Shown piece by piece: positions 10,728 through 28,437 of a stretch of DNA of 46,985 nt (the first letter of the stretch is position 1; every line of letters begins with the position of its first letter). The notes under the pieces were generated by a model. That model searched no databases, was not told the origin of the DNA, and saw only the letters and a program-made list of their open reading frames with translations. The stretch comes from Anaerolineales bacterium (GTDB taxonomy: Bacteria; Chloroflexota; Anaerolineae; Anaerolineales; Villigracilaceae). The DNA lies in contig JAGUZU010000074.1 of NCBI GenBank assembly GCA_020060625.1, positions 1 through 46,985 of the forward strand, given 5' to 3'. The translations under genes and the position numbers were made by a program.

Positions 10728-10729
10728 GC

Positions 10730-12655: not shown

Positions 12656-12754
12656 AATTCACATCCTGACTTGTTGAATGGAGACGCCCTCCGCCTCACT
12701 CCACCGGATACCTGCTCGAACATCCCCGGCAGTATCCACACTGACAAAACTTCC

Positions 12755-12790: not shown

Positions 12791-12793
12791 AAT

Positions 12794-14131
12794 TTACTTC
12801 GACAACTTATCGTGAATCGCCTGCTGGAAGCGTTCACGCACGCCTTCAAACGGGATGCGCTGCATGATCGGATCGAAGAAGCCTTCCACAACCAACCGCT
12901 CCGCTTCGCGCTGCGGAATGCCGCGGGACTTGAGATAGAAGAGGGGTTCCTGTTCAAGTTTACCAACTGTCGCGCCATGCGTGCAACGGACATCGTCCGC
13001 AAGGATTTCCAAACCGGGGATCGAGTCCGCGCGCGCCTGATCGTCGAGAACGAGATTGCGATTGGCTTGATAACCGTCGGTCTTCTGCGCGCCTGGGGCG
13101 ACGTAGATCATCCCCTGCCACACAGAACGGCTTTTTCCTCTCAGCGCGCCCTTGAACAGCAAATCGCTCGTGGTGTTGGGCGCAAGATGGTTTTGCTGGG
13201 TATCGTGGTCGAGATGCTGGGTTCCATCGGTAAAGTAGAAACCTGACATGCGCCCCTGCGCGCCTTCGCCAGCCAGATCGAGATCGGAAAAGTTTTTGGT
13301 CAGGCGGGAGCCAACAGCGCCGAATATCCAGTCGAGGCTGCCGCCGCGATCCACGCGGGCGCGTTCGTGCGAGAAGTTCCACACATGACGACCCCAAGAC
13401 TGCAATTCGACAAAGCGCAGGTTGGCATCTTTGCCGACATAAATTTCAACGATGCCAGCATGCATGGCATGACCCGTTTCATCCGGTGACGCTGCTTCGT
13501 GGACGTAGGTCACAGACGCGCCATCTTCCACGTAGACGAGCAGATGCGAGAAGTGCGCGAGGTCTTCGCCCGGACCCCACAGCACGGAGTGAAGGGGCTG
13601 CTCCACCTGCGCGCCTTTAGGGACGTAGAGCAGAACGCCATTTTCAGAAAGCGCCAAAGCAAGCGCGGCAAATTTACCATCCCCCGGCTTGACGATCTGA
13701 CCGATCAACTTCTTGAGCAGGTCAGCGTGATTCTTTTCGGCGGTGCGGAAGTCGGTGAAGACCACGCCTTTCTTGGAGAGGGATTCATCCAATTCCACTT
13801 TGGAGCCGCCAGGGAGCAGGGTGATCTGTCCGCCGTGCTGGTTGCCTGTCAACGGCTTTAGCAATTCTTCAGGGACAACGGGCAGGTCTTCGAACGCGCC
13901 CGCTTTGGGAAGTTTGAAATCAGGAGCGGGCAGCAAACGCAAATCGGTTCGACGCCAGGCTTCGAGCGCGGTGTCGGGGAGAGTCTGCTTGGAGAACACG
14001 TCCCAGGCTGAGGCGCGGAAAGAGGCGAGTCCGTTCGCGGAGGGAACGTCTGCTTGCGTGAATTTAAATTCCTTCGAGGCGGTCTCCGCGCGGCGTCCTC
14101 TTGATACGGTAACTTTTGGTTTCTCTTGCAT
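12794..14131 (-). CDS. sufD: Fe-S cluster assembly protein SufD
   Basis: A 445-residue SufB/SufD-family protein and partner of SufB and SufC in the cytoplasmic SufBCD scaffold. Family patterns include LALSENGVLLYVPKGAQVEQPL in the middle. SFSDLDL-like beta-helix repeats follow, then LAPNTTSDLLFKGALRGKSRSVWQGMIYV. RCTHGATVGKLEQEPLFYLKSRGI is near the end, with the conserved His. I start it at 14131 (MQEKPKVTVSRG). The reading frame continues upstream into a TGTCATTGCGAGG palindromic repeat, which only yields repeat-encoded residues. It follows sufB and is separated from it by that 89-bp repeat. Confidence 0.95.
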   Translation of the reverse strand: MQEKPKVTVSRGRRAETASKEFKFTQADVPSANGLASFRASAWDVFSKQTLPDTALEAWRRTDLRLLPAPDFKLPKAGAFEDLPVVPEELLKPLTGNQHGGQITLLPGGSKVELDESLSKKGVVFTDFRTAEKNHADLLKKLIGQIVKPGDGKFAALALALSENGVLLYVPKGAQVEQPLHSVLWGPGEDLAHFSHLLVYVEDGASVTYVHEAASPDETGHAMHAGIVEIYVGKDANLRFVELQSWGRHVWNFSHERARVDRGGSLDWIFGAVGSRLTKNFSDLDLAGEGAQGRMSGFYFTDGTQHLDHDTQQNHLAPNTTSDLLFKGALRGKSRSVWQGMIYVAPGAQKTDGYQANRNLVLDDQARADSIPGLEILADDVRCTHGATVGKLEQEPLFYLKSRGIPQREAERLVVEGFFDPIMQRIPFEGVRERFQQAIHDKLSK

Positions 14132-14144
14132 AGTTAATCTCACT

Positions 14145-14233
14145 ATGTCATTGCGAGGGCGATAGCCCGAAGCAATCTGTTTGCAAACGGGAGATTGCTT
14201 CGTCGGGGAAGAGCCCCCTCCTCGCAACGACAT
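14145..14233. repeat. TGTCATTGCGAGG palindromic repeat, copy 2 (inside the SUF operon)
   Basis: An 89-bp imperfect palindrome from ATGTCATTGCGAGG to CCTCGCAACGACAT, with inner arms GAAGCAATCTG and AGATTGCTTCGTCGG. It fills the sufB-sufD spacer and touches the sufB stop codon. It creates the spurious MSLRGG... extension of the sufD frame. Same family as 8297-8391 and 27038-27124. Confidence 0.88.
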
Positions 14234-15657
14234 TAGCCTATCGAGCCTTCCATTTGAAGTTGAATCAGGCGGTTCATTTCCACCGCGTATTCCATCGGGA
14301 GTTCTTTGACGAGCGGTTCGATGAAGCCGGAGACGACCATGGTGGTGGCTTCTTCTTCGCTCAAACCACGCGACATGAGATAGAAGAGTTGCTCCTCACC
14401 CACTTTGCTGACCGAGGCTTCGTGACCGACGGTTACATCATCTTCGTCAATTTCAATATAAGGATAGGTGTCGGAGCGGGATTGCGGGTCGAGCAAAAGC
14501 GCATCGCAAACGACGTTGGACTTGACGCCTTTCGCGCCTTTGTGTACCTTGAGCAAGCCGCGATAAGATGCGCGCCCGCCCGCCTTGCTGATGGACTTGG
14601 ATGTGATTTTGCTGGTGGTATTCGGAGCAAAATGCACCATCTTGGAACCCGCGTCTTGAATTTGACCCGTGCCTGCAAATGCCATCGAGAGCATTTCGCC
14701 GTGCGCGCCGGGTTCCATCAAATAGCAGGACGGGTATTTCATCGTAACCTTCGAGCCGAGGTTGGCATCCACCCATTCATGAGTGGCGTTTTTGTACACT
14801 TTGGCGCGCTGGGTCACAAGATTGTAAACATTGGTTGACCAGTTCTGGATGGTCGAATAGCGCGAACGGGCGCCCCTCTTGACAATGATCTCGATCACGC
14901 CGGAGTGGAACGAGTCGGTGGTGTATTGCGGCGCGGTACAGCCTTCCACATAGTGAACCGAGGCGTCTTCATCCACGATTATGAGCGTGCGTTCGAACTG
15001 ACCCACATTGGCTGTGTTCAAACGGAAATACGCCTGCAAAGGCAAATCCACTTTGACGCCCTTCGGCACATACACGAACGAACCGCCAGACCAAACCGCG
15101 GAGTTAAGCGCGGCGAATTTATTATCTTCAATCGGAATGACCGTGCCGAAATATTCGCGGAACAGGTCGGGGTGCTGTTTCAAACCATCTTCAATGGAGA
15201 GGAAGATCACGCCTTGCTTTTCGAGATGTTCCTGAATGGAGTGATACACCATCTCCGATTCGTACTGCGCGCCCAAGCCTGCGAGGAACTTCTGCTCGGC
15301 TTCGGGGACGCCCAGTTTATCGAAGGTGCGCTTGATGTCATCGGGCACATCGTCCCATGATTTTTCGCTTTTCTCGGTCGGCTTGACGTAATAATAGATA
15401 TTCTCGAGGTCGAGTTCTTTCAGCTCGGGTCCCCAATTGGGCATGGGGCGTTTCATGAAATGGTCGAGCGCCTTGAGGCGAAACTCGAGCATCCACTGCG
15501 GCTCGCCCTTCATGCGTGAAATATTTTCAACCACTTCGCGGCTCAAGCCTTTTTCGGACTTGAAGGTGTAGTTGTCGTCGCGGTCGTGAAAACCGTATTT
15601 ATAATCACCAATTTCTTCGAGGATCTTGGTGTCGTCAGTTTTTGTCTCTTCAGCCAT
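14233..15657 (-). CDS. sufB: Fe-S cluster assembly scaffold SufB
   Basis: A 474-residue SufB, the main scaffold subunit on which SufBC2D builds clusters. Characteristic regions are the N-terminal [21 protein letters not shown], then [20 protein letters not shown], and [36 protein letters not shown] carries a conserved cysteine, and the C-terminal half has [28 protein letters not shown]. Full length with a clear ATG. It is transcribed behind sufC (27 nt apart) and before sufD, giving the common order sufC-B-D. Confidence 0.97.
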
Positions 15658-15683
15658 TTAAAACTCCTATAACCACTAAAGGG

Positions 15684-16475
15684 CTAGGCAGCGGATTCTT
15701 CGCCTTCGACCACTGTTTCATATTTTTCGCGCACCCAGTCATAGCCGTGTTCTTCGAGGTGCAAGGCAAGGTCGGGACCGCCGGATTCGACGATCTGCCC
15801 GTTCATCATCACGTGAACGAAGTGCGGCTTGATGTAGTTCAACAGGCGTTGATAATGTGTGATGACCAGCACGCCAAGTTCGGGTCCGGCAAGAGCGTTG
15901 ACGCCTTCCGAGACGACGCGCAGCGCATCGATATCCAGACCTGAATCTGTTTCGTCCAAAATGGCAATTTCCGGTCTGAGGGTTGCCATCTGCAATATCT
16001 CGGCGCGTTTCTTCTCGCCGCCGGAGAAACCATCGTTGAGGTAGCGCCCCGCAAAGGCATGATCCATCTTGAGCGTACCCATTTTTTCCTTCAACATCTT
16101 GCGGAATTCGGGAATGGGCATACCCTTGTCTTCCGGGTTTGCGGCGCGGCGGCGGGCGTTGATTGCCGAGCGCAGGAAGTTCGCCACTGTCACGCCGGGG
16201 ATGGCGACAGGATATTGGAAGGCAAGAAAAATTCCCTCGCGGGAACGTTCGTCGGGTTCGAGTTCGAGGACGTTCCTGCCCTTGAAGAGTATCTCACCCT
16301 CTGTAACAGTGTAATTGGGGTGCCCCATCAACGTATACGCAAGCGTGGATTTTCCCGTGCCGTTCGGTCCCATTATGGCGTGAATTTCGCCCTGTTTGAT
16401 GGTGAGGGAAAGCCCCTTAAGGATTTCCTTATCCTCGATGCTGACGTGCAGATTCTTGATTTCAAGTTGCGACAT
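15684..16475 (-). CDS. sufC: Fe-S assembly ATPase SufC
   Basis: A 263-residue ABC-type ATPase that powers the SufBCD complex. Walker A is GPNGTGKST (about residues 36-44). The Q-loop region is [13 protein letters not shown]. The ABC signature is [11 protein letters not shown], Walker B is [12 protein letters not shown], and the H-loop lies in [10 protein letters not shown]. It is the first gene of the SUF operon, read from a near-perfect sigma-70 promoter at 16555-16583 with a leader of about 70 nt and a GAGGAG ribosome-binding site. A SufR-type operator motif overlaps and extends upstream of the -35. Confidence 0.97.
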
Positions 16476-16554
16476 TCTGATATTGCTCCTCGGAAAATGA
16501 CCGCTTAAACGGTATTTTGTAAACCATTTCTGGCGTTTTTATTGAATTCGCGTC

Positions 16555-16615
16555 ATTATAGCAGGGTCAGGTGAAATTGTCAAATATTTATGATATTTTT
16601 CTAGTATATTCGACA
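16555..16615 (-). promoter_or_regulatory. SUF operon promoter and putative SufR operator
   Basis: On the minus strand, TTGACA (complement of 16578-16583) and TATAAT (complement of 16555-16560) are exact consensus boxes 17 nt apart. Adjoining the -35 is the motif at 16582-16615, beginning AAATATTTATGATATTT. It recurs with about 31 of 34 positions identical in front of sufR (19969-20001). Its ends TGTCAAATAT and ATATTCGACA are inverted. This is most simply a SufR binding site. Confidence 0.85.
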
Positions 16616-16668
16616 CAGAAAGGAAGTTTTGGTAGTGGCTCAAGCAAATGGTTACGGTCTGGATATTC

Positions 16669-16734
16669 ACCGCAGAGGCGCGGAGTTCGCAGAGTTTTTA
16701 AGGTTTTTCTCCGCGTTCCCTGCGGCTCTGCGGT
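16669..16734. repeat. GCAGAG-type palindromic repeat, copy 1
   Basis: A 66-bp imperfect palindrome running from ACCGCAGAGGCGCGGAG to CGGCTCTGCGGT, with a T-rich centre. It lies in the 378-nt gene-free stretch between sufC and the phosphatase gene. Besides the promoter/operator, I see nothing else in that stretch. Related copies are at 29241-29306 and 46922-46985. Confidence 0.75.
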
Positions 16735-16854
16735 AAAAAATAACCAGCATCATTTACGCAAGCCCAAGACCGAAGTTTTTATATCAAATTCATGCCATAC
16801 ACAAAAAATCATGGCGGGTGAACCTATAATGTAAGGGGTATTAGGAGCGCAACG

Positions 16855-19800
16855 ATGAGAATTCGCATAATACTTTCAGCTTTGCTGCTTGGGCTTATTT
16901 CCGTATCCATCCAAAGCCCATCTGCAAATGCCCAAAGTGACCGTGTCATTTTTGCCGTCATTGGCGACTATGGACTTGCGGGTCAAGCCGAAGCGGATGT
17001 GGCAAATCTGGTCAAAAGCTGGAACCCGGATTTCATTGTCACGACGGGAGACAACAACTATCCAGACGGCACTTCAGAGGTCATAGATCAAAATATCGGG
17101 CAGTATTATCACGAGTACATTTTTCCTTACAAAGGAACGTATGGAAGCGGGGGGACAACAAAAAGATTCTTCCCAAGCATCGGGAATCATGATTGGGGCG
17201 TCAATTCGGGAAAAGCGTTCTTCGATTATTTCAGCATTCGCAATCAACAATCTTTTTATGAATTTGTCCAAGGACCCGTTCATTTCTTTATTCTAAACAG
17301 CAACCGGGAGGAACCAGACGGCGTCAGCCCCACATCACCGCAGGGAAAGTGGTTGAAAAAAAGCCTGGCAGCATCCACGTCAGTATTTAACGTGGTTGTC
17401 TTCCATCACCCGCCTTACTCATCCGGGAGACATGGGTCGAACATCTACATGCAGTGGCCCTTCAAGGAATGGGGCGCAGACGTCGTGCTTTCAGGTCACG
17501 ATCATACCTATGAAAGGCTTGTCGTTAATGGAATGCCATATTTCGTCAACGGGATCGGGGGTGCGGAGCTATATTATTTCAACCCGCCTCTGCCGGAAAG
17601 CCAGTCGCGCTTCAACCAGGATTTTGGCGCGATGCGCGTGGAGGCGACCAGCGCGTATATGAAATTCCAAACGATCACTCGCGCAGGGTTATTGGTGGAC
17701 GAATACACAATCGGGCAAAATATCCCCATTGTTACAGCGATTACCGCAATCAACCAATCCCCTACAAACGCAAGTGTTCTCAATTTTCAGGTCAGTTTTT
17801 CGGAATCCGTGACAGGCGTCGATGCTTCCGACTTCACTCTCTCGACGAATCTCAATGGAGCAGCAATTGAAAATGTCAACGGTTCTGGAAACACATACAC
17901 GGTTTCAGTCTCGTCCGGCAATGGCGACGGGGCGCTCCGCCTCGACCTGACCGACAACGACTCCATTATGAACAGTCTGGGAAACAGCCTTGGCGGACCA
18001 GGCGTTGGCAATGGGTCGTTCACAGACGGTCAAACGTATGTTGTAGACAAAACTCCGCCGAGCATCGTCTCCATTACGCGGAACAATCCAAATCCCACGA
18101 ACGCATCCAATGTGGAGTTTGCCGTTATTTTTTCCGAGCCTGTAAATGGCGTGGACCTTGCAGATTTTGGTTTGGCAACCAGCACAGGCGCTCAAATCAC
18201 CCACATTACCGGCTCTGGAAATTTGTATCTTGTCTCTGTACTGACGGGTACTGGCGACGATGCTTTGCGCCTTGATTTCATGGACAACGACAGCGTTGTA
18301 GACCTGGCGGGCAACGCCACAAACGCGGGCTTTTCCAACGGTGAAACCTACGCAATTGACCGAAGCATACCGCACGTAACATCCATTGTGCGCGCGGATC
18401 AAGGCAACGCCTCCAGCGTGGATTTCACTGTCAGTTTTTCAGAAGCAGTGAGCGGCGTGGATGGAAGCGACTTTTTCGTATCCACAATAAACGGGGCGAC
18501 CATTGCAAATGTGAGCGGCTCCGGCGATACTTATACAGTCTCTTTGTCTCTGAACCCTGGAAACGACGTCGTCAAACTTGATTTAATAGACGATGACAGC
18601 ATCGTTGACGACGCTGACAACAGGCTTGGAGGCATGGGAGCCGGCAATGGAAATTTCACAAACGGGGAGGTGATTTCCATCAGTCAATATGCGCCCAGCG
18701 CAACGTCCATCTTGCGCGCCGGATCAACCCCCACCAATGCAGCCAGCGTGGATTTCATCGTCACATTCTCAGAACCCGTGAACGGTGTGGACACGACAGA
18801 TTTTGTCATCACAGGCGGAACAAATGCTTTCATTCTCAAGATCGATAATGTGAATCCTTTTTATGTCGTTACTGTGGATACAGGTTTGAGCGAAGGCAAT
18901 CTCAAACTGGATTTGGTGGACGACGATAGCATCCGAAACTTAAATGGTATCAGCCTTGGCGGCGAAGGCTTGGGGAATGCAAATTTCACGAACGGGGAAT
19001 CTTTTTTGATGGATAGAACTCCCCCAAGAATCACATCCATCACACGCGCAGGCAGAAACCCAGCCATTGACCCCAGCGTGGATTTTATCGTCACATTTTC
19101 CGAGCCGGTTTCCGGTCTTGATGCTTCTGATTTTGTTGTAACAACATCCAACCTTAAAGCCTTTATCATAAACCTTCAAAATGCGAATCCGTTCCATGTG
19201 GTTTCTGTAAATGGCGGCGCGGGCTCGGGCGCAATTCGCCTCGACTTGATTGACGATCTCAGCATTACCGATCTGGCGGGGAATCATCTGAACAATGGAA
19301 GCGGAAATGGCAACTTCACCACAGGCGAATCATTTACAATCGCAAAAATTCCGGTCAATTTCCCCGCGCCGGTCATATTGAATTCGAATCGCTACACGCT
19401 GATAAACAATCCCACCCCTTCTTTTTCATGGAATTCGATTCGCAACGCCCGCGCATACGAACTCTTCCTTGCGCTGGACCCTGGCTTCAGTCAAATCATC
19501 CTTACTCAAACCGTTGATAAAACCAGTTTCACGCCAAACATGCCGTTAAACGACGGCACGTATTATCTGCAAGTGCGAGCCTATAACATTGACCTCAACC
19601 CGGGAAAGTTCAGCAAGCCATTTACATTCATATTGGACACCACGCCTCCTCCCCCGCCGACGCTGGTCAGCCCGCCCAATCAATCCGCTTCCCCGAATCG
19701 GCCTCTCCTGCAATGGCAGTCGCTCGGCAGACAGGTGCAGTACGAGGTGCAACTCGATAACGATCCAGGGTTTTCCAATCCCAAATTCAAGAGCGTGACT

Positions 19801-19926
19801 ACAAAAACATCCATCCGAACCGGACTTCTTTCACGGGACGCCACTTACTACTGGCGCATGCGAGCAAAGGATAAAGCCGGAAATTGGGGCGAATGGTCGG
19901 AAAGTTTTGTGTTTTCCATGCCGTGA
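16855..19926 (+). CDS. Secreted purple-acid-phosphatase-like metallophosphoesterase with Ig-like repeats
   Basis: A 1023-residue exported protein with a signal peptide (about 1-26, ending ANA). Residues 30-290 form a calcineurin-like metallophosphoesterase domain with GDYG, GDNNY, GNHDWG, FHHPPYSSG and GHDHTYER, so all metal ligands are present. Five tandem repeats of about 105-110 residues follow (about 290-830). Each has FxVxFSExVxGVDxxDF, then a Gly-rich turn, L.LDL.D.DSI and GNGxFTxGExxxxDxxPP, resembling bacterial Ig-like adhesion modules. Two fibronectin-like domains end the protein (about 835-1023). It is likely a cell-surface or secreted phosphomonoesterase; the substrate is unknown. 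AGGAG precedes the ATG. It lies between the SUF operon and sufR with no obvious functional tie. Confidence 0.9.
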   Translation: MRIRIILSALLLGLISVSIQSPSANAQSDRVIFAVIGDYGLAGQAEADVANLVKSWNPDFIVTTGDNNYPDGTSEVIDQNIGQYYHEYIFPYKGTYGSGGTTKRFFPSIGNHDWGVNSGKAFFDYFSIRNQQSFYEFVQGPVHFFILNSNREEPDGVSPTSPQGKWLKKSLAASTSVFNVVVFHHPPYSSGRHGSNIYMQWPFKEWGADVVLSGHDHTYERLVVNGMPYFVNGIGGAELYYFNPPLPESQSRFNQDFGAMRVEATSAYMKFQTITRAGLLVDEYTIGQNIPIVTAITAINQSPTNASVLNFQVSFSESVTGVDASDFTLSTNLNGAAIENVNGSGNTYTVSVSSGNGDGALRLDLTDNDSIMNSLGNSLGGPGVGNGSFTDGQTYVVDKTPPSIVSITRNNPNPTNASNVEFAVIFSEPVNGVDLADFGLATSTGAQITHITGSGNLYLVSVLTGTGDDALRLDFMDNDSVVDLAGNATNAGFSNGETYAIDRSIPHVTSIVRADQGNASSVDFTVSFSEAVSGVDGSDFFVSTINGATIANVSGSGDTYTVSLSLNPGNDVVKLDLIDDDSIVDDADNRLGGMGAGNGNFTNGEVISISQYAPSATSILRAGSTPTNAASVDFIVTFSEPVNGVDTTDFVITGGTNAFILKIDNVNPFYVVTVDTGLSEGNLKLDLVDDDSIRNLNGISLGGEGLGNANFTNGESFLMDRTPPRITSITRAGRNPAIDPSVDFIVTFSEPVSGLDASDFVVTTSNLKAFIINLQNANPFHVVSVNGGAGSGAIRLDLIDDLSITDLAGNHLNNGSGNGNFTTGESFTIAKIPVNFPAPVILNSNRYTLINNPTPSFSWNSIRNARAYELFLALDPGFSQIILTQTVDKTSFTPNMPLNDGTYYLQVRAYNIDLNPGKFSKPFTFILDTTPPPPPTLVSPPNQSASPNRPLLQWQSLGRQVQYEVQLDNDPGFSNPKFKSVTTKTSIRTGLLSRDATYYWRMRAKDKAGNWGEWSESFVFSMP

Positions 19927-19968
19927 TACGACTCAAACACCGTCAACATATCGGGGCAATCATCTAAT

Positions 19969-20024
19969 AAATATTTATGATATTTATCTAATATATTGAC
20001 ATTCTCCCCTCACTTGGTTATACT
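19969..20024 (+). promoter_or_regulatory. sufR promoter and putative SufR operator
   Basis: TTGACA (19996-20001) and TATACT (20019-20024) are 17 nt apart. The operator-like motif 19969-20001 nearly matches the one at sufC and again ends in the -35. The predicted transcription start falls on or next to the A of the ATG at 20032, so the sufR mRNA is probably leaderless. The arrangement implies autoregulation. Confidence 0.85.
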
Positions 20025-20031
20025 CCCCGCC

Positions 20032-20655
20032 ATGAACTCCACGCGAGACAAAATCCTGCAAACCCTGCTGAAAAAGCCGCGCTCCACCATCAATGACCTA
20101 GCGGAAGCCGTCGGCATCAACCCAATTTCCGTGCGCCATCACCTGACGAACCTTCAAATGGAGGGATTGGTCGAATCGCAGGAGGAGCGGCATGGTGTGG
20201 GACGTCCGCGTCTGGTGTACATACTCACGGATGAGGGGATGGAACGCTTTCCCACACGTTACCTGCGCCTCGCCACCCGCCTCATCGCTCAGATGAAAGA
20301 TTCCATGCCGCAGCCGATGGTGAGTAAGATGTTCGGTCAGATCGCGGAAGACCTTGCCAGCGAGTACGCCAAAGACATCAAGGGATTGAGTATGGAGGAG
20401 CGTCTTGACCTCGTCAAGAGTCTACTGGCGCAGGAAGGCTTTACTGTGGAGTGGGAGAAGAAAAACGGACAGTACGAGATCCATGAAATTTCATGCCCGT
20501 ACTACCAGATCGGCATTACCCACCCTGAAGTCTGCACCATGGACCAGACACTGATCTCGAAAATGCTTGCCCTGCCTGCGAACAAAGTTCAGTGCATTCT
20601 GGACGGCAACGCGCATTGCGTCTATGTCGTCCAGCCAGCGATCAAGGCAAAATAA
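20032..20655 (+). CDS. sufR: SufR-type Fe-S-sensing transcriptional regulator
   Basis: A 207-residue DNA-binding protein. The N-terminal winged helix (about 1-70) has ILQTLLKKPRSTINDLAEAVGINPISVRHHLTNLQ and a wing with GVGRPRLVY. The C-terminal half holds four cysteines, C155, C168, C188 and C196, as expected for the cluster-binding site of SufR. SufR represses SUF genes when its cluster is intact. I start it at 20032 (MNSTRDKI); the frame extends 12 codons upstream into the promoter. SufT-like gene 20671-21018 follows 15 nt after the stop. The matching operators at sufC and sufR support the assignment. Confidence 0.92.
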   Translation: MNSTRDKILQTLLKKPRSTINDLAEAVGINPISVRHHLTNLQMEGLVESQEERHGVGRPRLVYILTDEGMERFPTRYLRLATRLIAQMKDSMPQPMVSKMFGQIAEDLASEYAKDIKGLSMEERLDLVKSLLAQEGFTVEWEKKNGQYEIHEISCPYYQIGITHPEVCTMDQTLISKMLALPANKVQCILDGNAHCVYVVQPAIKAK

Positions 20656-20670
20656 ACAAAAAGAGGAAAT

Positions 20671-21018
20671 ATGAGCGACTCTGAAATCAAAGAAATTCAG
20701 TGGACTATCCACACCACGCACCCCGAAATGGTCAAACCCGCCCGTGAAAAATTGTCGGAAGTGGTGGACCCCGAAATTGGAATGAACATCATCCAGCTGG
20801 GTCTGGTGCGCGATATTGAGATCGAAAACAACATCGCCCGTTTGAAGATGATCCTCACCACGCCATTCTGTCCTTACGGTCCCGCCATGATCGAGATGAC
20901 CAAAGCCAAAGCCACCGAAGGGCTGAACATGCCCGTCACCGTGGAAATGGGTATGGATATGTGGGATTTCTCCATGATGGAAGACCCCTCCGCGCTGGAC
21001 TGGGGAATGTACGCATAG
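20671..21018 (+). CDS. SufT-like MIP18/DUF59 protein
   Basis: A 115-residue protein of the MIP18 (DUF59) family. It has the conserved VVDPEIGMNIIQLGLVRDIEI at about residues 30-50 and the TTPFCPYGPAMIEM segment with the conserved Cys. Family members (SufT, PaaD, eukaryotic CIA2) help deliver or mature Fe-S clusters. Co-transcription with sufR, behind AGAGGAAAT, fits a SufT role. The N- and C-terminal extensions are short and Met/Asp-rich (MGMDMWDFSMMEDPS). It ends in the TAG that abuts an 8-nt-period array and a strong terminator. Confidence 0.88.
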   Translation: MSDSEIKEIQWTIHTTHPEMVKPAREKLSEVVDPEIGMNIIQLGLVRDIEIENNIARLKMILTTPFCPYGPAMIEMTKAKATEGLNMPVTVEMGMDMWDFSMMEDPSALDWGMYA

Positions 21019-21112: not shown

Positions 21113-21721
21113 TCATCTTTTCTTCAAGTGCATTACATGCGGCTGTTCGCCTTCCGCAAACCCCGAAATAATGACCAGGGCGGTAACCACATTGGCGCCA
21201 GGATTGCGCCAGCGATGCCGTAATTTGGAGGCGAACAACAGGCTGTCTCCCGCCTCCAAATGAAACAACTCCTTTTCGACAAAATAATCCAACTGCCCGC
21301 GCAGGCACAGCACAAATTCATGCCCCGAATGGACAATGTTATTCGGACCGCACGAAGCCCCGCTTTCCAGCGTCAACATGAACGGCTCCACCCTTCCCAC
21401 AAACTGTTCCCCGCCGAGCGCCTCGAAAACGCCCCGCGTAAACGACAAACGGGTGCGCTCATCGTGTTTCAAAAAAATCACCTGCCGTTTTTCGTTTTCA
21501 GTGCCGAAAAACGCGGTGATCGAAACGCCCAATGCGTCTGCCAATTTATACAACGTGCTGACCGAAGGCGACGTCTTGCCGCGCTCGATCATCGAAAGCG
21601 CGTTTGCAGAAAGTCCGCTTCTGGCGGCAAGCGCCCGCATCGAAATCCCCTGCGCCTCCCGCAGTTCCCGCAAACGTGTTGAAACATCCACAGACATTGC
21701 CTCTCTTTGAAATGTATCCAT
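21113..21721 (-). CDS. XRE-family transcriptional regulator with cupin domain
   Basis: A 202-residue regulator. Residues about 10-70 form a lambda-repressor-like helix-turn-helix (TRLRELREAQGISMRALAARSGLSANALSMIERGKTSPS...). Residues about 110-195 form a cupin beta-barrel (SGHEFVLCLRGQLDYFVEKELFHLEAGDSLLFASKLRHRWRN). Such proteins often sense small ligands; the ligand here is unknown. I start it at 21721 (MDTFQREAM), behind GGAG. An upstream ATG adds 19 residues without family support. It is divergent from the ArsR-type gene across a 185-bp region with repeated operators, so the two may share control. Confidence 0.87.
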   Translation of the reverse strand: MDTFQREAMSVDVSTRLRELREAQGISMRALAARSGLSANALSMIERGKTSPSVSTLYKLADALGVSITAFFGTENEKRQVIFLKHDERTRLSFTRGVFEALGGEQFVGRVEPFMLTLESGASCGPNNIVHSGHEFVLCLRGQLDYFVEKELFHLEAGDSLLFASKLRHRWRNPGANVVTALVIISGFAEGEQPHVMHLKKR

Positions 21722-21790
21722 AAATATCTCCACTAAAAAGCGAACGAACGGCTTTTCGAAACGCTGAAATCTCCCCAAAATTATACCCCC

Positions 21791-21833: not shown

Positions 21834-21906
21834 CTATTGTACAATCTTTCACAAGATTATCATCAACGCATAAATATTCGTTTATTCGCATATAAGCAGG
21901 TAACTT

Positions 21907-22254
21907 ATGGTCAATGCAACCCTTCAACAGGAAATCACCCAACTGGAAGCCAATTTCTGCGCCGCGCTTTCCGACCCCAACCGCCTCCTCATCCTCTACG
22001 CGCTTCATGACGGACCGCGCAACGTCACCGACCTTGCAAACGAACTTGGGATCAACCAGCCCACCACATCGAGGCATCTCAAGATTCTGCGCGAACGCGG
22101 GCTTGTAAACGCGGTCCGCAGCGGCACCACCATCACCTACCACCTTTTCGACACAAGGCTTATCCAGGCGCTTGACATCATGCGAAGCATCATGCGCGAC
22201 CGCCTCGCATATCAAACGAACCTGATCAATGAAACGACACAGGAGAATGTATGA
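21907..22254 (+). CDS. ArsR-family transcriptional regulator
   Basis: A 115-residue winged-helix repressor. The core is ALSDPNRLLILYALHDGPRNVTDLANELGINQPTTSRHLKILRERGLVNAVRSGTTITYHL. The only cysteine (C18, EANFCAALSDPNR) lies in the first helix, so a classic multi-Cys metal site is absent. A redox or other input is possible. Its stop overlaps the start of the octaheme cytochrome gene (ATGTATGA), so it is the first gene of that operon and probably controls it. Repeated operator-like sequences lie about 75-115 nt upstream. Confidence 0.9.
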   Translation: MVNATLQQEITQLEANFCAALSDPNRLLILYALHDGPRNVTDLANELGINQPTTSRHLKILRERGLVNAVRSGTTITYHLFDTRLIQALDIMRSIMRDRLAYQTNLINETTQENV

Positions 22255-23687
22255 AACAACGCTTCCCCACCTGGACCCTGGGGCTGATCGGCATCATATT
22301 GCTGATTCTCATCCCGGTCTTCTACTTTCTTCCCCGTTCCGAGGCAAAGAATAACCCCGCAGGCTACCTGCCCGCCAAAGCCGTCCACGTAGATCACACG
22401 GACATCATCAACGGCGAATTCACCACCGGGCAGGAGGTCACCCGCGCCTGCCTTGAGTGCCACGAAGACGCCGCCGCGCAAGTGATGGCAACCACCCATT
22501 GGACGTGGGAATCGAAAGAATTCGACGTCCCCTGGCGCGACGAGCCTGTCACCATCGGCAAAGCCAACCAGATCAACAACTTCTGCATCAGCTCGCAGGG
22601 CAATCAAAAGAGATGTATGACCTGCCATGTCGGGTATGGATGGGAAGAATATGAAGAATATGATTACACCGTTCAGGAAAACGTGGACTGCCTTGCCTGC
22701 CATGCGGACATGAGCGCATACGCAAAGGGCGAATACGGCGAACCCGCTGAAGGCGTGGACTTGCTCGCCGCAGCGCAAAGCGTCCGCGCTCCCTCGCGCG
22801 ACAACTGTGGAACCTGTCACTTCGACGGCGGCGGCGGCAACGGCGTCAAACACGGCGACCTCGACGAAAGCCTGTACTTCCCAAGTGAATCGCTCGACGT
22901 CCACATGGGCGGCAAATTGGACATGCTATGCACCGACTGCCACTGGACCGAAAACCACCAGATCCTCGGGCGCATGTTGACCGACAACTACACCATTGAC
23001 CCGCAGGAACAAGTCTCCTGCGAGCAATGCCACGTAGACCAACAACACGGCGACGAACGGATCGATATCCACCTCGCGGCAGTCGCCTGCCAAACCTGCC
23101 ACATCCCCGCGCTCGCGCTCGAAGATCCCACCAAAACCTATTGGGACTGGTCGCAGGCGGGTCAGGAAGGACGCGAGGACGATCACTTCACCTACCTCAA
23201 GATCAAGGGTGAGTTCACCTACGATAAAAACTTCGCGCCGACCTATCTCTGGTTCAACGGGAATAACGAATACCGCTACCTGCTCGGCGACCCCGTCAAC
23301 GAGAACGGCGTGACCTATATCAACAAACCCGCCGGGAGTATCACAGACCAGAACGCGAAAATCTTCCCTTTCAAATTACACGTCGCAAAACAACCCTACG
23401 ACACAAACTACAACTACCTGCTCGCCCCCATCACTGCCGGCGAGGACGGCTACTGGACCACCTTCGATTGGGAGAGCGGTTTCCAACTCGCACAGGAACG
23501 CATGGGCTTGCCCTACAGCGGTCAATACGGCTTCGCCACCACCTACATGTACTGGCCCACCACCCACATGGTGCAATCCGCCGACAAAGCCCTGCAATGC
23601 GACTCTTGCCACGGCAAAGAAGGACGCATGGACTGGGAAGCGCTCGGCTACCCCGGCGACCCCATCGAATGGGGCGGGAGGAAATAA
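22251..23687 (+). CDS. Octaheme c-type cytochrome, tetrathionate reductase (OTR) family
   Basis: A 478-residue exported cytochrome with an N-terminal membrane anchor or uncleaved signal (about 9-28). Eight CxxCH heme sites start at residues 67, 122, 147, 186, 227, 257, 280 and 450. Signature blocks such as TTHWTWESKEF, NNFCI, RCMTCHVGYGW, VDCLACH, RDNCGTCHFDGGGGNGVKHGDLD and LDVHMG match the octaheme OTR family as I know it from Shewanella. That enzyme reduces tetrathionate, nitrite and hydroxylamine in vitro, and its physiological role is unsettled. The start overlaps the ArsR stop, and the next cytochrome gene begins right after its stop. It is likely the catalytic subunit of this module. 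Confidence 0.92.
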   Translation: MKQRFPTWTLGLIGIILLILIPVFYFLPRSEAKNNPAGYLPAKAVHVDHTDIINGEFTTGQEVTRACLECHEDAAAQVMATTHWTWESKEFDVPWRDEPVTIGKANQINNFCISSQGNQKRCMTCHVGYGWEEYEEYDYTVQENVDCLACHADMSAYAKGEYGEPAEGVDLLAAAQSVRAPSRDNCGTCHFDGGGGNGVKHGDLDESLYFPSESLDVHMGGKLDMLCTDCHWTENHQILGRMLTDNYTIDPQEQVSCEQCHVDQQHGDERIDIHLAAVACQTCHIPALALEDPTKTYWDWSQAGQEGREDDHFTYLKIKGEFTYDKNFAPTYLWFNGNNEYRYLLGDPVNENGVTYINKPAGSITDQNAKIFPFKLHVAKQPYDTNYNYLLAPITAGEDGYWTTFDWESGFQLAQERMGLPYSGQYGFATTYMYWPTTHMVQSADKALQCDSCHGKEGRMDWEALGYPGDPIEWGGRK

Positions 23688-23688
23688 C

Positions 23689-26430
23689 ATGAAACGCTAC
23701 ACACTGCTGACACTTATCGGATTGACCATCCTGGCTCTTGCCATCGGAATTGGAACGGCTCTCGCCGCGCCGACGCCTGCCCCAACCACCCAGGCTTCCG
23801 TCCTACACCCGAACTTCATCCTGCTCGATGCCAACGGCGCGAACGTGCTGGAAAGCGGAAACACAGTCTCCACGATGCAAACCTGCGGACAATGCCACGA
23901 CACAACCTTCATCGCCGAACATGCCTTCCACTCCGACCTCGGATTGAACGTCTACGACGCAAACGCAGAATCATTCAATACCAGCAACGGTCTCTTCGGC
24001 GAGTGGGACCCGATCACCTATCGCTTCCTTTCGCCCGCCAACGACGAACGACTCGACCTCGGCACCGCCGAATGGTTAATGCTGAACGGCGCGCGCGTCG
24101 TCGGCGGCGGACCAGCCACAACGTCGCGTGGAGGCGAAGCGCTCGCCGATCTCCCTGCCAGCAAATCCAATCCCGAAACCGCGATCTTGAACGAAGATGG
24201 AAGCGTCTCGACGTGGGACTGGGAAAAATCAGGCACGATGGAAATGAACTGCTTCCTGTGCCATCTCGAAAGTCCGAATAATGAAGCGCGGGTGAAGGCA
24301 ATCCAGGCGGGTGAATTTGGGAACGCCAATACCGCCACCCTGCTCGGTCTGAACGTCGTCGGCAAGAATAGCGAAGGCTGGTCATGGAATGCGGACGCCT
24401 TCAACGAACTTGGCGAGATCAAAAGCGAAATCCTTCGCATTCAAGACCCAACAAATTCGAATTGCGCGGCGTGCCATGGCGAAGTCCACGCAGATGCCAC
24501 ACCCCTCACAATTGACGCTTGCGATTTCGATTATCCGCAAACCGCCACAACGGGGCAGGTCATTTCCGCGCAGCGCATCAACCAATCGGGCTTGAACCTG
24601 GCGGGCAAAAACGACCTCACCCGCCCATGGGATATTCACGCGCAGCGCCAGTTGGAATGCACAGACTGTCACTTCGCGCCCAACAATCCCGCGCACGTTC
24701 TTGAAGCGCAGGAATCCAACCCCAGCCACCTGCTCTACGACCCGCGCAAACTGGAGATCGACGAATACCTCGAACGCCCCGACCATAATTTCGCGCGCGG
24801 CGCGAGCGCCCAATTCAACGTCGCGCCCGAGCTCAAAAGCACCATGCGCCGCTGCGAATCCTGTCACGACACGAACAAGTCGCACGCGGGCTGGCTCCCC
24901 TACAATGACCGTCACATGCAGGTGATCGCCTGTGAGACCTGCCACGTCCCGCAAATGTACGCCCCGGCTTACTCCACCATCGACTGGACTGTCGTACGCA
25001 TTGACGGCTCCGCCCGCACCGAATGCCGCGGCATCGAAGGGTCAGATACCGCCACCGACCTTGTCACCGGCTATCAGGCTGTGTTGATGCAGCGCACCGA
25101 TATTGTGGATGGAAAAACCCTGTTCGCGCCATACAACTTGATCACTTCGTTCTATTGGGTTTATGAAGACGCGAACGGCAGCCAGCGCCCGGTTCGTCAA
25201 GCGGACCTGGAAGCTGCGTACCTCACGAATGGCAAATACTCCGCCGACGTGCTTTCCGCCCTCGACGAAAACGGCGACGGCAAACTCTCCGAAGACGAAT
25301 TGACCCTGGATACTGAATCCAAACAACAGTTGATCGCGGGAAAACTTGAAGCGCTGGGGTTGAGCAATGTCCGCATCGAGGGACAGGTACAGCCCTACTC
25401 GATCAACCACAACGTCGTGGATAGCAAATCCGCTACGCGGGACTGCGCGGCTTGCCACAATGCCGAATCGCGCGTCACCGCCCCGATCCTGCTGGCAAGC
25501 TCCGCCCCCGCCGGCGTAACCCCCGAATTTGTTTCGGATGTCAATGTGACGGCAACCGGAAGCATTGTCAACGAAGGCGGCGCGTTGTATTACAACCCCG
25601 TCAACGAAAACGATAAGACCTACATCTTCGGGCATAACCGCGTTCCATGGATCGACTGGGGCGGCGCGCTGCTCTTCGTCGGCACGCTCATGGGAGTGGC
25701 GGGACACGCCACCATCCGGTTTGTTGTGGCGCGCAGGCGTAACAGGCAAACAACCGCAACGAAACCCGTTTATATGTATGAAGCCTACGAGCGGTTCTGG
25801 CACTGGCTTCAAACCGTCGCCATCGTCATATTGTTGACGACAGGGTTGATCATCCATCGCCCCGATCTGTTTGGCGCCTTCTCCTTCCGTAACATTGTCA
25901 CCGTTCACAACGTACTGGCTGCCCTGCTTGCCATCAACGCCCTGGTCTCGATCCTCTGGCACGTCATCAGCGGCGAAATCCAGCAATACATCCCGCACCC
26001 TTACGGCTTCATCGACCAGATGATCGCGCAAGCCAAATACTACATCCAGGGCATCTTCAACCAGGAGCCTCACCCATTCCACAAATCCAAACAGCGGAAG
26101 TTCAACCCGCTGCAAATGGTGACGTACATCGGCTTGCTGGGCGTCCTGCTTCCCCTGCAAGGGCTCACCGGCATGATGATGTGGCTGGTGCAGAAAGTTC
26201 CGGCTATTCAGGACTGGTTTGGCGGGCTGCCCTTCCTCGCCCCCATGCACACGCTGATGGCATGGCTCTTCGCATCCTTCATCGTGGCGCACGTCTATCT
26301 GACCACCACTGGAGCGACCCCGCTCGAAGCCATGCGCGGCATGATTACGGGCTGGGAGGAAGTTGAAGTATCAGAACACGACTCCGAGGTCAGGAAAAAA
26401 GAAGCGAAGAAAGAGTCAAAGAAGAAATAG
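23689..26430 (+). CDS. Seven-heme cytochrome c fused to a cytochrome b-type membrane domain
   Basis: A 913-residue protein with a signal peptide (about 1-27). Seven CxxCH sites start at residues 66, 188, 259, 324, 389, 415 and 586. An EF-hand-like loop D-x-N-x-DG-x5-E is at 526-537. A membrane segment lies at about 658-680. A b-type membrane domain at about 700-880 has candidate heme histidines (H705, H740, H758, H854, H868) and the charged loop YIPHPYGFIDQMI typical of respiratory b subunits. The tail is Lys/Glu-rich. It probably takes electrons from the quinol pool and passes them to the octaheme cytochrome. Coupling is tight: the ATG overlaps the preceding TAA. A perfect 15-bp hairpin follows its stop. 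Confidence 0.9.
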   Translation: MKRYTLLTLIGLTILALAIGIGTALAAPTPAPTTQASVLHPNFILLDANGANVLESGNTVSTMQTCGQCHDTTFIAEHAFHSDLGLNVYDANAESFNTSNGLFGEWDPITYRFLSPANDERLDLGTAEWLMLNGARVVGGGPATTSRGGEALADLPASKSNPETAILNEDGSVSTWDWEKSGTMEMNCFLCHLESPNNEARVKAIQAGEFGNANTATLLGLNVVGKNSEGWSWNADAFNELGEIKSEILRIQDPTNSNCAACHGEVHADATPLTIDACDFDYPQTATTGQVISAQRINQSGLNLAGKNDLTRPWDIHAQRQLECTDCHFAPNNPAHVLEAQESNPSHLLYDPRKLEIDEYLERPDHNFARGASAQFNVAPELKSTMRRCESCHDTNKSHAGWLPYNDRHMQVIACETCHVPQMYAPAYSTIDWTVVRIDGSARTECRGIEGSDTATDLVTGYQAVLMQRTDIVDGKTLFAPYNLITSFYWVYEDANGSQRPVRQADLEAAYLTNGKYSADVLSALDENGDGKLSEDELTLDTESKQQLIAGKLEALGLSNVRIEGQVQPYSINHNVVDSKSATRDCAACHNAESRVTAPILLASSAPAGVTPEFVSDVNVTATGSIVNEGGALYYNPVNENDKTYIFGHNRVPWIDWGGALLFVGTLMGVAGHATIRFVVARRRNRQTTATKPVYMYEAYERFWHWLQTVAIVILLTTGLIIHRPDLFGAFSFRNIVTVHNVLAALLAINALVSILWHVISGEIQQYIPHPYGFIDQMIAQAKYYIQGIFNQEPHPFHKSKQRKFNPLQMVTYIGLLGVLLPLQGLTGMMMWLVQKVPAIQDWFGGLPFLAPMHTLMAWLFASFIVAHVYLTTTGATPLEAMRGMITGWEEVEVSEHDSEVRKKEAKKESKKK

Positions 26431-26438
26431 GAACAGGT

Positions 26439-26474
26439 CATTCGTGGAGGGCGGCGAATCGCCCTCCACGAATG
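26439..26474 (+). other. Perfect 15-bp intra-operon hairpin
   Basis: CATTCGTGGAGGGCG (26439-26453) and CGCCCTCCACGAATG (26460-26474) flank GCGAAT. It lies between the cytochrome fusion and the first YeeE gene, ending 6 nt before its ribosome-binding site. There is no T run, so RNA stabilisation, processing or partial read-through is more likely than full termination. Confidence 0.8.
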
Positions 26475-26492
26475 AAATCCAAGGAGTATGAA

Positions 26493-27038
26493 ATGACTGC
26501 TCAAACAAAGAAATCCATTTTCAACCGCCCCGAAAAATCTTATGTGCATCCGTACTTCGGCGGTATCGTGCTTGGAATCGTCCTCTTCCTCGCCTTTTTC
26601 CTGACAGGCAATGGGCTTGGTTCTTCAGGCGCGACCAGCCGCATCGACGCATGGATCGCGGACGCCATCTCCCCATCCCACGTGGATAACAATCCCTATC
26701 TATTGAAAATGGCGGGCGGAGACAAGAATCCTCTGGATGATTGGATCGTGCCGGTCTTCTTCGGCGCGCTGCTCGGCGGCTTCGTCTCGGGCTTTTTCAA
26801 CGGACGCCTCAAATTCACGACCACCAAAGGACCGCACATCTCGAACCGCGCCCGCTGGTTGGTGGCATTCCTCGGCGGCGTGATCTTTCTCTACGGCGCG
26901 CGCATGGCGCGGGGATGCACCTCCGGGCAGGCGCTTTCGGGTGGCGCCACCCTCTCCGCAGGCTCATGGGTGGTCATGTTTGCCATCTTCGGTGGCGCGT
27001 ATGGAATGGCGTATTTTGTAAGGAAATTGTGGAATTAA
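26493..27038 (+). CDS. YeeE/YedE-family transporter, first half
   Basis: A 181-residue membrane protein with about four helices (near 22-40, 85-103, 122-137, 157-175). The conserved YeeE/YedE motif ARGCTSGQALSGG is at 139-151 with its functional cysteine C142. Full-length YeeE proteins take up thiosulfate through a line of cysteines. Here the family is split, and the second half is the next gene. I start it at 26493 (MTAQTKK), directly behind AAGGAG. An upstream in-frame ATG lies before that site. The stop codon abuts a palindromic repeat. Confidence 0.88.
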   Translation: MTAQTKKSIFNRPEKSYVHPYFGGIVLGIVLFLAFFLTGNGLGSSGATSRIDAWIADAISPSHVDNNPYLLKMAGGDKNPLDDWIVPVFFGALLGGFVSGFFNGRLKFTTTKGPHISNRARWLVAFLGGVIFLYGARMARGCTSGQALSGGATLSAGSWVVMFAIFGGAYGMAYFVRKLWN

Positions 27039-27124
27039 TGTCATTGTGAGGAGCGGAGCGACGAAGCAATCTCCCCTTACATGAGATTGCTTCGGGCGGA
27101 CGAACACCGCCCTCGCAATGACAT
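27038..27124. repeat. TGTCATTGCGAGG palindromic repeat, copy 3 (between the YeeE halves)
   Basis: An 87-bp imperfect palindrome from ATGTCATTGTGAGG to CCTCGCAATGACAT, with inner arms GACGAAGCAATCTC and GAGATTGCTTCGGGC. It starts at the last base of the first YeeE stop codon and ends 11 nt before the next start, just ahead of its AGGAGA site. Confidence 0.88.
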
Positions 27125-27135
27125 AGGAGACTCTC

Positions 27136-28437
27136 ATGAACTTTCCCCTCCCTGAATTCATCGTGGTCAGCGCAGCCAACCCGTGGACGTACGTGCTCTT
27201 TGGCGCAATCGGCTTTGCGTTCGGCTACGTGCTTGAAATGTCCGGGTTTGGCGATTCACGGAAACTCGCCGCGCAATTCTATTTTACCGAAATGACCGTG
27301 CTTAAAGTGATGTTCACCGCCATCGTCACCGCCATGGTATTGACCTTCGGCGCGGTTGGTCTTGGCTTGCTGGATTTCGGTCAGGTGTGGGTCAACCCCA
27401 CTTATCTTTGGTCGGGTATTCTCGGCGGGCTGATCATGGGCGTCGGCTTCATCGTCGGCGGGTTCTGCCCCACCACCTCGCTTGCTTCCGCCTCCACCGG
27501 CAAGATCGACGGCATGTTCTTCATGCTTGGCGGTTTCGTCGGCGCGGCTCTCTTTGCGGAAACCGAGAAGTTCTTCACGCACTGGTATAACAACGCGGGC
27601 TATTACGGGCGCGTCACACTGGATCAGGTCTTCAACCTGCCCATCGGCGTGGTGGTTCTGCTCGTCGTGCTGATGGCGCTCTTCATGTTCTGGGGCGCGG
27701 AGCAGCTCGAACGCATCTTTGGCAAAAAAGACTTGAGCAAGGAACCGAAACTTCGCATCGCGGGCGCGGGCGTCCTGTTCGCCGCGGCGCTGGCAGTCGT
27801 CTTCATCGGTTCGCCCAGCCTCGAGGATAGATATGACAAACTCACCTTCACCCGCACGGAGACCATCGAGCAGGTGGACGCAGATCCCATTGTCAACACC
27901 CACACATACACCGCGGACGATATGATCGAGAACCGCCTTGTTTTCGTCTCGCCTGCGGAAGCGTTCAAGGCAAAATACAACCAGGGAATGAAGCCGATTT
28001 ACATCGATGTGCGCTCCGAAGCGGATTACAACCTGTATCACATCGAAGATGCTGTAAACGTTCCGCTCGACCGGCTCGAAGAAGTGATACCGATCTTATT
28101 GAGCGAGCCGCCCGCCAACAGCGTCTTCATTGTGATGAGCAACGACGAAGCCGCCGCCATCGAAGCCTGGAAACATCTCGTCGCATCGAGTGTGGCGAAT
28201 TCCTACATCCTCGAAGGCGGGGTCAACAACTGGATTGCGTTCTTCGGCAAGGATGACAAGACGATTCGTCCCAACCCGAATGCTGGTGACGACGAATTGG
28301 GCTTCATCTTCCCCGCTGCGTTGGGCAGCCGCTACGAATCCTGCTCGCCCAGCCCCATCGAATACGAGCATTTGGAATTCGAGGCAAAGATCCAATTGCA
28401 GTTGAAACGCGATAAGAGCGGCGGAGGATGCGGGTAG
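27136..28437 (+). CDS. YeeE/YedE-family transporter half fused to a rhodanese-like domain
   Basis: A 433-residue protein. Residues 15-225 form about five or six membrane helices with the YeeE motif GGFCPTTSLASA (C111). Residues 268-370 form a rhodanese-like domain (PAEAFKAKY, PIYIDVRSEADYNLYHIEDAVNVPLD, SYILEGGVNNWIAF). The usual active-site Cys loop reads FIVMSNDEAAAIEAW, so the catalytic Cys is absent. Only C111, C403 and C432 exist, and C432 is the penultimate residue in the C-terminal SGGGCG. In family terms this pairs sulfur-compound uptake with sulfur handling. A relay role for the end Cys is speculative. It is the last gene of the module and a terminator follows. Confidence 0.9.
   Translation: MNFPLPEFIVVSAANPWTYVLFGAIGFAFGYVLEMSGFGDSRKLAAQFYFTEMTVLKVMFTAIVTAMVLTFGAVGLGLLDFGQVWVNPTYLWSGILGGLIMGVGFIVGGFCPTTSLASASTGKIDGMFFMLGGFVGAALFAETEKFFTHWYNNAGYYGRVTLDQVFNLPIGVVVLLVVLMALFMFWGAEQLERIFGKKDLSKEPKLRIAGAGVLFAAALAVVFIGSPSLEDRYDKLTFTRTETIEQVDADPIVNTHTYTADDMIENRLVFVSPAEAFKAKYNQGMKPIYIDVRSEADYNLYHIEDAVNVPLDRLEEVIPILLSEPPANSVFIVMSNDEAAAIEAWKHLVASSVANSYILEGGVNNWIAFFGKDDKTIRPNPNAGDDELGFIFPAALGSRYESCSPSPIEYEHLEFEAKIQLQLKRDKSGGGCG

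Follow-up and report, generated by a model that had tools for sequence, protein, structure and literature searches.

Shewanella OTR, an octaheme cytochrome c, reduces tetrathionate, nitrite, and hydroxylamine in vitro (PMC4484225). OTR was found in 73 genomes from Zodletone spring sediment (PMC9040765), lies next to a cytochrome b in Thermosulfurimonas (TDIS_1882-1883; PMC4911364), and has relatives of the SirA/OTR kind encoded with rhodanese-domain proteins in thiosulfate-reducing Dethiobacter (PMC10376724). The physiological role of OTR cytochromes is unclear. Here we describe a five-gene cassette in a 46,985-nucleotide (nt) stretch of contig JAGUZU010000074.1 (GCA_020060625.1; hereafter the window) from an Anaerolineales bacterium of the Villigracilaceae. 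An ArsR-family regulator is followed by an OTR, a heptaheme cytochrome c fused to cytochrome b (the c-b protein), and two halves of a YeeE importer, the second carrying a rhodanese-like domain. The module is real and conserved, and because OTR and a sulfur importer are tightly linked throughout a large family, these cytochromes gain a concrete, testable role. Our reading, which we hold at about even chances, is an ArsR-controlled operon for a membrane-bound, menaquinol-driven reductase of S–S bonds that is coupled to product uptake by YeeE and equipped with a thiol/selenol arm.

Organization of the cassette

The features of the locus are as follows.

21874..21893, no strand: probable ArsR operator ATATTCGTTTATTCGCATAT, 13 nt 5' of arsR, 0 mismatches to the consensus RTATTCGNNTANNCGNATAY
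21907..22254, + strand: ArsR-family regulator, 115 residues (PF01022, E 1.4e-19; NF033788, 82.2 bits, cut-off 55)
22251..23687, + strand: OTR-family octaheme cytochrome c, 8 CxxCH (TIGR04315, 548.8 bits)
23689..26430, + strand: c-b protein, 913 residues, 7 CxxCH (PF01292)
23797..25647, + strand: heptaheme domain of the c-b protein, residues 37-653, OTR-like fold (AlphaFold2 model, match to 1sp3)
25777..26352, + strand: cytochrome b domain of the FdnI/HyaC/PhsC type, residues 697-888 (PF01292, 81.2 bits)
26440..26473, no strand: perfect inverted repeat between the c-b and YeeE1 genes, read by eye
26472..27038, + strand: YeeE1, the C-terminal YeeE half (PF04143 positions 162-309), with Cys149 (26916-26918)
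27136..28437, + strand: YeeE2, the N-terminal YeeE half (PF04143 positions 11-179) with a rhodanese-like domain (PF00581), and Cys111 (27466-27468)
27970..28239, + strand: rhodanese-like domain of YeeE2, residues 279-368 (PF00581, E 5.3e-10)
28396..28437, + strand: C-terminal arm of YeeE2 ending GGGCG, with Cys432 (codon 28429-28431; UGA, selenocysteine (Sec), in relatives)

Profile matches and CxxCH counts bear out the five genes and domains that a preliminary description of the window had given, including its counts of 8 CxxCH sites in the first cytochrome and 7 in the second. The stop/start overlap that it assigned to the first three genes holds for arsR and otr (4 nt), and otr and the c-b gene are 1 nt apart. 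It lacked the C-terminal arm, the exchange of UGA for Cys codons, the OTR kinship of the second cytochrome, and the operator.

Conservation and linkage

An alignment of the c-b protein was used to scan genomes, and the best 80 of 551 relatives are called the c-b loci. Where the flank was sufficient, the c-b gene was accompanied by OTR (71/71), YeeE1 (76/76), YeeE2 (73/73), and the rhodanese-like domain (65/65); ArsR was the least constant member (56/67). The loci have mostly Anaerolineae or Chloroflexi titles, with two each from Neomarinimicrobiota, KSB1, and Acidimicrobiia, these phylum names being titles of metagenome bins in which mis-binning is possible. Gene spacings are short, with medians of 30, 24, 50, and 15 nt (54, 66, 69, and 63 pairs), and the c-b and YeeE1 genes overlap or touch in 10 of 69 pairs and lie within 100 nt in 54. 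The five genes would presumably share one transcript.

Linkage was also measured from OTR and from YeeE2 within the class. TIGR04315 was over its cut-off in 46 of 249 genomes, and 52 loci were fetched around these OTR places (batches of 20, 12, and 20). In 42 of the 52 the c-b gene adjoins OTR on the same strand, and the YeeE genes come next wherever the contig is long enough; 26 of these 42 have an ArsR gene upstream, contig ends not discounted. The other ten comprise nine OTRs of other types and one locus (L059) cut by a contig end. Together with the source genome, the 42 cassette genomes spread over ten families. In the reverse direction, full-length YeeE2-rhodanese proteins above 500 bits were found in 39 of the 249 genomes. 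All 39 also have an OTR over its cut-off; the two genes share a contig in 35 genomes and lie on different contigs in 4. Two partial matches were found beyond these, in G125 and in G179, the latter without OTR. The preliminary description had suggested a search for the five-gene order across Chloroflexota and had let its proposal stand or fall with linkage of the cytochromes to YeeE; linkage is complete where the flank suffices, and it is reciprocal.

The linkage bears on whether the substrate is a sulfur or a nitrogen compound. The cassette could encode a quinol-linked nitrite or hydroxylamine reductase beside which the YeeE genes are kept for another reason, since Shewanella OTR acts on both compounds in vitro (PMC4484225). 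YeeE1, YeeE2, and the rhodanese-like domain follow in every c-b locus with enough flank, and the minor neighbors scanned (see below) include rhodanese and NrfD-type proteins; we regard the nitrogen reading as very improbable.

The two cytochromes

The octaheme protein is, by its sequence, a full member of the OTR family. TIGR04315 covers it over model positions 2-440 of 440 with a score over the cut-off of 375 bits, and the match to 1sp3 has E 2.4e-128. Cys112 (22584-22586) and Lys200 (22848-22850) align with Cys64 and Lys153 of 1sp3 (chain positions counted by hand) and are invariant in 37 OTR rows, window included. In 1sp3, Lys153 ligates the catalytic heme, and Cys64 and Lys153 are active-site residues. 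An N-terminal membrane anchor is predicted at residues 9-27. In a tree (unrooted, quick method), a fully supported branch splits 37 cassette OTRs from six OTRs of the class without the cassette. In a divergent fused protein in L061, the OTR Cys aligns with Leu. The 1469-residue frame at that locus (8819-13228, genome G174) contains 22 CxxCH and resembles OTR in two stretches, so it may be two OTRs fused in tandem.

The heptaheme domain of the second cytochrome is modeled with a fold like that of OTR, and the protein therefore appears to join an OTR relative to a cytochrome b of the FdnI/HyaC type. The AlphaFold2 model of the c-b protein has a predicted local distance difference test score of 82. 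Superposition of the heptaheme domain on 1sp3 gave Z 11.7 with a root-mean-square deviation of 4.3 over 336 aligned residues, and Foldseek matched the same structure with E 2.8e-06 and a modest TM score (0.37 by target length). Profile alignment with hhalign placed the four-heme core of the domain on OTR with 97.7% probability (E 2.4e-12, 119 columns). No counterpart of the OTR Lys motif (GGGGxxVKHGDLD) was seen in the c-b alignment, so the heptaheme domain may be a noncatalytic electron wire. At a guess, the heme that it has lost is heme 2. An EF-hand-like loop at 25246-25302 (residues 520-538), in which D526 and E537 are invariant in 44 rows, is possibly a calcium site.

The fused b-type membrane domain named in the preliminary description was recovered as PF01292 at residues 697-888, above the cut-off of 30.1 bits, and the profile matches all 44 rows of the c-b alignment. 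Structure comparison returned FdnI (1kqf_C, Z 12.7) and HyaC (6g94_A, Z 10.7), Z values that helical bundles can reach by chance. The best NCBIfam match of the domain is thiosulfate reductase cytochrome b (PRK15006, NF011582), at 138.6 bits and below the cut-off of 204. The match of the b domain and the active-site residues of OTR support a quinol-linked extracytoplasmic oxidoreductase, as had been proposed; the sulfur or nitrogen substrate and the direction attached to that proposal are kept conditional below.

The split importer and its C-terminal arm

Both YeeE halves match PF04143 (79.3 bits for YeeE1 and 60.7 for YeeE2; cut-off 27). The preliminary description had the halves in order; they are swapped, the first gene encoding the C-terminal half of the family and the second the N-terminal half. 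Each half has one key Cys. Cys149 of YeeE1 is Cys in 36/36 matches; at Cys111 of YeeE2, 90 distinct loci have a Cys codon in 87 cases and TGA in frame in the other 3. The start of YeeE1 is probably Met8 (26493), a residue invariant in the alignment of relatives, rather than 26472, which sits at the end of the inverted repeat. The stretch between the halves (27039-27135) has matching ends (GTCATTG...CAATGAC) and looks like a dispersed repeat.

The rhodanese assignment on the split YeeE stands as a domain match in the second piece, and the catalytic Cys of an active rhodanese (thiosulfate sulfurtransferase) is absent. What we take to be the active-site loop, from its position in rhodanese anatomy, reads VVMSNDE and has no Cys in 17/17 aligned rows. 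The model of YeeE2 shows a confident rhodanese fold, and rhodanese domains are the best Foldseek matches, none of them under E 0.001. The domain is probably extracytoplasmic because of the positive-inside counts: mean numbers of Lys and Arg are 3.2 in loop 5-6 and 2.2 in loop 1-2, and 0.2-1.0 in the other loops and the N-terminus. Residues 421-433 are modeled with low confidence, and the arm ending GGGCG is predicted to be disordered or flexible. YeeE2 ends with GG[C/U]G in 62 of 63 c-b loci that have this end on the contig. The exception is L145, with GGCSS; L090 and L105 run off their contigs.

Exchange of cysteine and selenocysteine

An in-frame UGA replaces the tail Cys codon in seven distinct loci (L070, L076, L077, L081, L136, L158, and L160), the YeeE2 Cys codon in three (L070, L076, and L136), and that of the OTR active-site Cys in two loci without the cassette (L067 and L068). 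A hairpin like the selenocysteine insertion sequence (SECIS) was found at 12/12 UGA sites but at only 1/264 Cys sites, and 200,000 positions drawn at random from the loci gave a rate of 0.55%, by a criterion set after the sites had been inspected (stem of 6-7 base pairs starting 15-17 nt from the first base of UGA, loop beginning GG or GT). Tail sites in this test were those ending GG[C/UGA]G-stop, with L145 outside. RNA folding of whole UGA contexts was uninformative against shuffles for three of four inputs. The tRNA-Sec model exceeded 65 bits in 8 of 9 UGA-bearing genomes. The window has Cys at all three exchange sites, and its source genome has tRNA-Sec (69.8 bits), SelB, and SelD. Because Cys is exchanged for Sec at the enzyme, the pore, and the tail, these thiols are suggested to take part in redox reactions or sulfur transfer, although they might instead bind metal. 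Sec-OTR and Sec-YeeE are in print at the family level: both OTR and YeeE (motif GUxSG) appear among the selenoprotein families of a 2026 review (PMC13188914). The GUxSG motif fits the other YeeE half, not the YeeE2 site, and the excerpt of that review contains no mention of the tail and YeeE2 Sec sites.

In another reading, the cassette reduces a selenium oxyanion and takes up the product for selenoprotein synthesis. The YeeE halves match YedE selenium models weakly and below cut-off (28.7 of 200 bits for TIGR04112; 27.4 of 350). SelD and TusA were searched at first in 40 of the 43 cassette genomes, G105, G123, and G128 being left out; SelD was over its cut-off in 37/40, and in 40/43 with the added search (93%), compared with 168/206 other genomes of the class (82%). 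SelD is thus common in the class anyway, and its enrichment was dropped as support after this class-wide control. Three genomes (G056, G081, and G084) have the cassette and no SelD over cut-off, and G107 has the cassette, no SelB over cut-off, and a tRNA-Sec match of only 48.9 bits. Selenium acquisition is the least probable of the readings we considered. G107 also belongs with G222 and G242 to the genomes with a full-length SelD free of in-frame UGA, and its lack of a SelB over cut-off and its low tRNA-Sec score suggest a use of selenium other than Sec.

ArsR and its probable operator

BigR/SqrR-type persulfide sensors need two conserved sensing cysteines. The cassette ArsR has one, Cys18 (codon 21958-21960), which is Cys in 28/28 matches and the only invariant Cys of 16 rows; without a pair and at 47.1 of 155 bits for NF040642, the protein falls outside that type. 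The nearest NCBIfam equivalog is TsoR (NF045707), below cut-off at 58.7 of 115 bits.

The palindrome RTATTCGNNTANNCGNATAY was found, allowing up to 2 mismatches, in 47 of the 55 distinct regions 5' of arsR, compared with ~0.1% in mononucleotide shuffles, the consensus having been drawn from some of the same loci. The palindrome is present in Neomarinimicrobiota locus L158 and absent from L160. A regulon search covered eight genomes, with control counts of 0 in the source genome and 0-2 per strand in the others. In the source genome the cassette site matches without mismatch, and five further places differ from the consensus at 1-2 positions: by our reading of the genes, one is inside a xanthine-dehydrogenase-type gene, one just before another ArsR gene, in an arsenic-type cluster, and three in or near other genes. 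None of the five is a recognizable second target, and the same holds for a second palindrome in G181, by a histidine kinase.

That these six inspected places gave no recognizable second target would fit a system for sensing or detoxifying reactive sulfur (or metal or metalloid) species, in which reduction outside, import of a signal through YeeE, and derepression of ArsR would have little energetic role. SoxT1B serves signal transduction to SoxR (PMC11582611). TsoR, the equivalog nearest to the cassette ArsR, regulates by its name the Tso operon, whose selenoproteins include one of the rhodanese type (PMC13188914). A sensor would pay dearly for a quinol-type b domain and fifteen predicted c-hemes, and we judge this reading rather improbable.

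Neighbors and genomic context

Beyond the five genes, an XRE-cupin regulator is the most frequent true neighbor of fixed place (16 of 108 distinct loci). In the window it lies at 21113-21778 (- strand), divergent from arsR; because it recurs at the same place, some relatives may use it as an additional regulator. Several listed neighbor clusters are shadow frames, and five further clusters were named by representatives. Minor recurrent neighbors among the 108 loci are a four-fold rhodanese protein (7), an NrfD-type (polysulfide reductase) subunit (5), and a 4Fe-4S protein (5), with one member scanned per cluster (L121 619-2307, L157 3690-4994, and L118 2953-4059, respectively). Upstream of the cassette, window positions 10730-21018 hold a SUF Fe-S cluster block (aminotransferase class V, two SufBD-core proteins, and an ABC ATPase) accompanied by a SufR-like regulator and a SufT-like protein.

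Elsewhere in the source genome, L194 (12952-18612) has TusA with QmoC/HdrA-like genes, and L198 (5004-8880) has a TusA-matching gene followed by DsrE2, DsrE, HdrC-like, and HdrB-like genes. TusA was rejected as a fixed partner of the cassette (18 of 40 cassette genomes).

These genes would suit an oxidative, Sox-like use of the cassette. Thiosulfate or sulfane sulfur would be conjugated to the GGGC/UG arm at an OTR heme, electrons would flow to quinone through the c-b protein, and YeeE would import sulfur to TusA/DsrE/Hdr-like carriers. The tail resembles the GGCGG end of SoxY. Menaquinone, however, accepts electrons poorly from the thiosulfate/tetrathionate couple, and 22 of the 40 cassette genomes searched, two of them single-contig, have no TusA. 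In favor, SoxT proteins, which are YeeE-like, bring in sulfur that is to be oxidized and also act for the repressor SoxR (PMC11582611), itself an ArsR-type protein (PMC12423496). We consider the oxidative use unlikely.

Discussion

The preferred reading remains a menaquinol-driven S–S-bond reductase coupled to uptake, with substrate, direction, topology, complex formation, arm chemistry, and ArsR ligand as the parts that we infer. Electrons would enter from menaquinol at the cytochrome b domain and pass through the heptaheme domain, seemingly without a catalytic site, to the anchored OTR. Reduction would take place at the heme 2 site of OTR, where Cys112 and Lys200 sit, and the substrate would most likely be tetrathionate or another sulfane-sulfur oxyanion. 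Thiosulfate or sulfane sulfur set free in this way would be taken in by the YeeE1/YeeE2 pair. The rhodanese-like domain, on the outside, may be a docking platform, and the flexible GGGC/UG tail a thiol/selenol arm that accepts sulfur between OTR and the pore. Sulfur in the cytoplasm would release ArsR from its operator. Sulfur is favored as the element because of what is known of the OTR, YeeE, and rhodanese families, the rhodanese, NrfD, and 4Fe-4S neighbors, and the TusA/DsrE2/Hdr-like genes of the source genome.

Several results weigh against this reading. Nitrite and hydroxylamine are substrates of OTR in vitro as well (PMC4484225), and the system could run in the oxidative direction. Against the TsuA thiosulfate-transporter equivalogs, the scores of the YeeE halves fall far short of the cut-offs (31.6 of 400 and 17.5 of 645 bits). 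TusA, the usual cytoplasmic partner, is in only the 18 genomes given above, and some of the loci have no ArsR gene upstream. Besides the late setting of the SECIS criterion, a looser measure finds a stem of at least 6 base pairs in 54/264 Cys sites too (OTR 5/100, YeeE2 30/87, and tail 19/77; UGA sites 12/12). UGA-bearing G124, 87% complete, reaches 47.1 bits for tRNA-Sec and has SelB only in pieces at a contig end; among 14 control genomes, 5 reach a 47-bit cut-off too, and the model at E up to 1e-9 still responds in 3.

A more specific form of the reductive reading is a vectorial sulfur system. OTR, the heptaheme–b wire, and the split YeeE channel would form one membrane complex, in which the tethered Cys/Sec arm carries sulfur covalently from heme to pore and so couples quinol-driven S–S cleavage to import. 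This form is tentative, and we would not assume it. Should the arm indeed carry sulfur, respiration and import would be joined by a tethered carrier of a new type. Judging from the natural exchanges of Cys and Sec, the residues likely to do the chemistry are the active-site Cys of OTR, the Cys of YeeE2, and the penultimate tail Cys, and the operon suggests a route for sulfur compounds that has yet to be described. Taken as a whole, the interpretation in the preliminary description is partly supported. It knew of no system with exactly these genes, and no description of the operon was found in searches of an open-licence library. New here are the kinship of the heptaheme domain with OTR, a rhodanese domain without catalytic Cys joined to a GGGCG arm, and UGA at the arm, YeeE2, and OTR Cys positions.

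Comparison with known systems

The cassette OTR resembles Shewanella OTR (TIGR04315, 1sp3) in its full-length match, 8 CxxCH, and aligned active-site Cys and Lys, and differs from it in a predicted membrane anchor and in having the heptaheme-b fusion and YeeE halves beside it. The arm resembles that of the SoxY carrier in its C-terminal Gly-Gly-Cys-Gly end outside the cytoplasm; the cassette arm is carried on a rhodanese-like domain fused to a transporter half, and its Cys can be Sec. Systems of OTR with a separate cytochrome b (Thermosulfurimonas; L065, L067, L068, and L082) also place a b-type membrane subunit next to OTR. No heptaheme-b fusion or YeeE genes were found beside OTR in those four loci, and L067 and L068, unlike the cassette OTRs, have UGA at the OTR Cys. 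The Tso operon of three selenoproteins shares a rhodanese-domain selenoprotein and, by NCBIfam name, an ArsR/SmtB regulator; the cassette ArsR is below the TsoR cut-off, and the excerpt names neither YeeE nor OTR for Tso (PMC13188914). TsuA, SoxT, and the split PmpA/PmpB share PF04143 and one key Cys per half, with split genes and, for SoxT, an ArsR-type regulator (PMC11582611). Compared with these, the cassette has longer halves, a swapped gene order, a rhodanese-like fusion, the GGGC/UG tail, and linkage to multiheme cytochromes.

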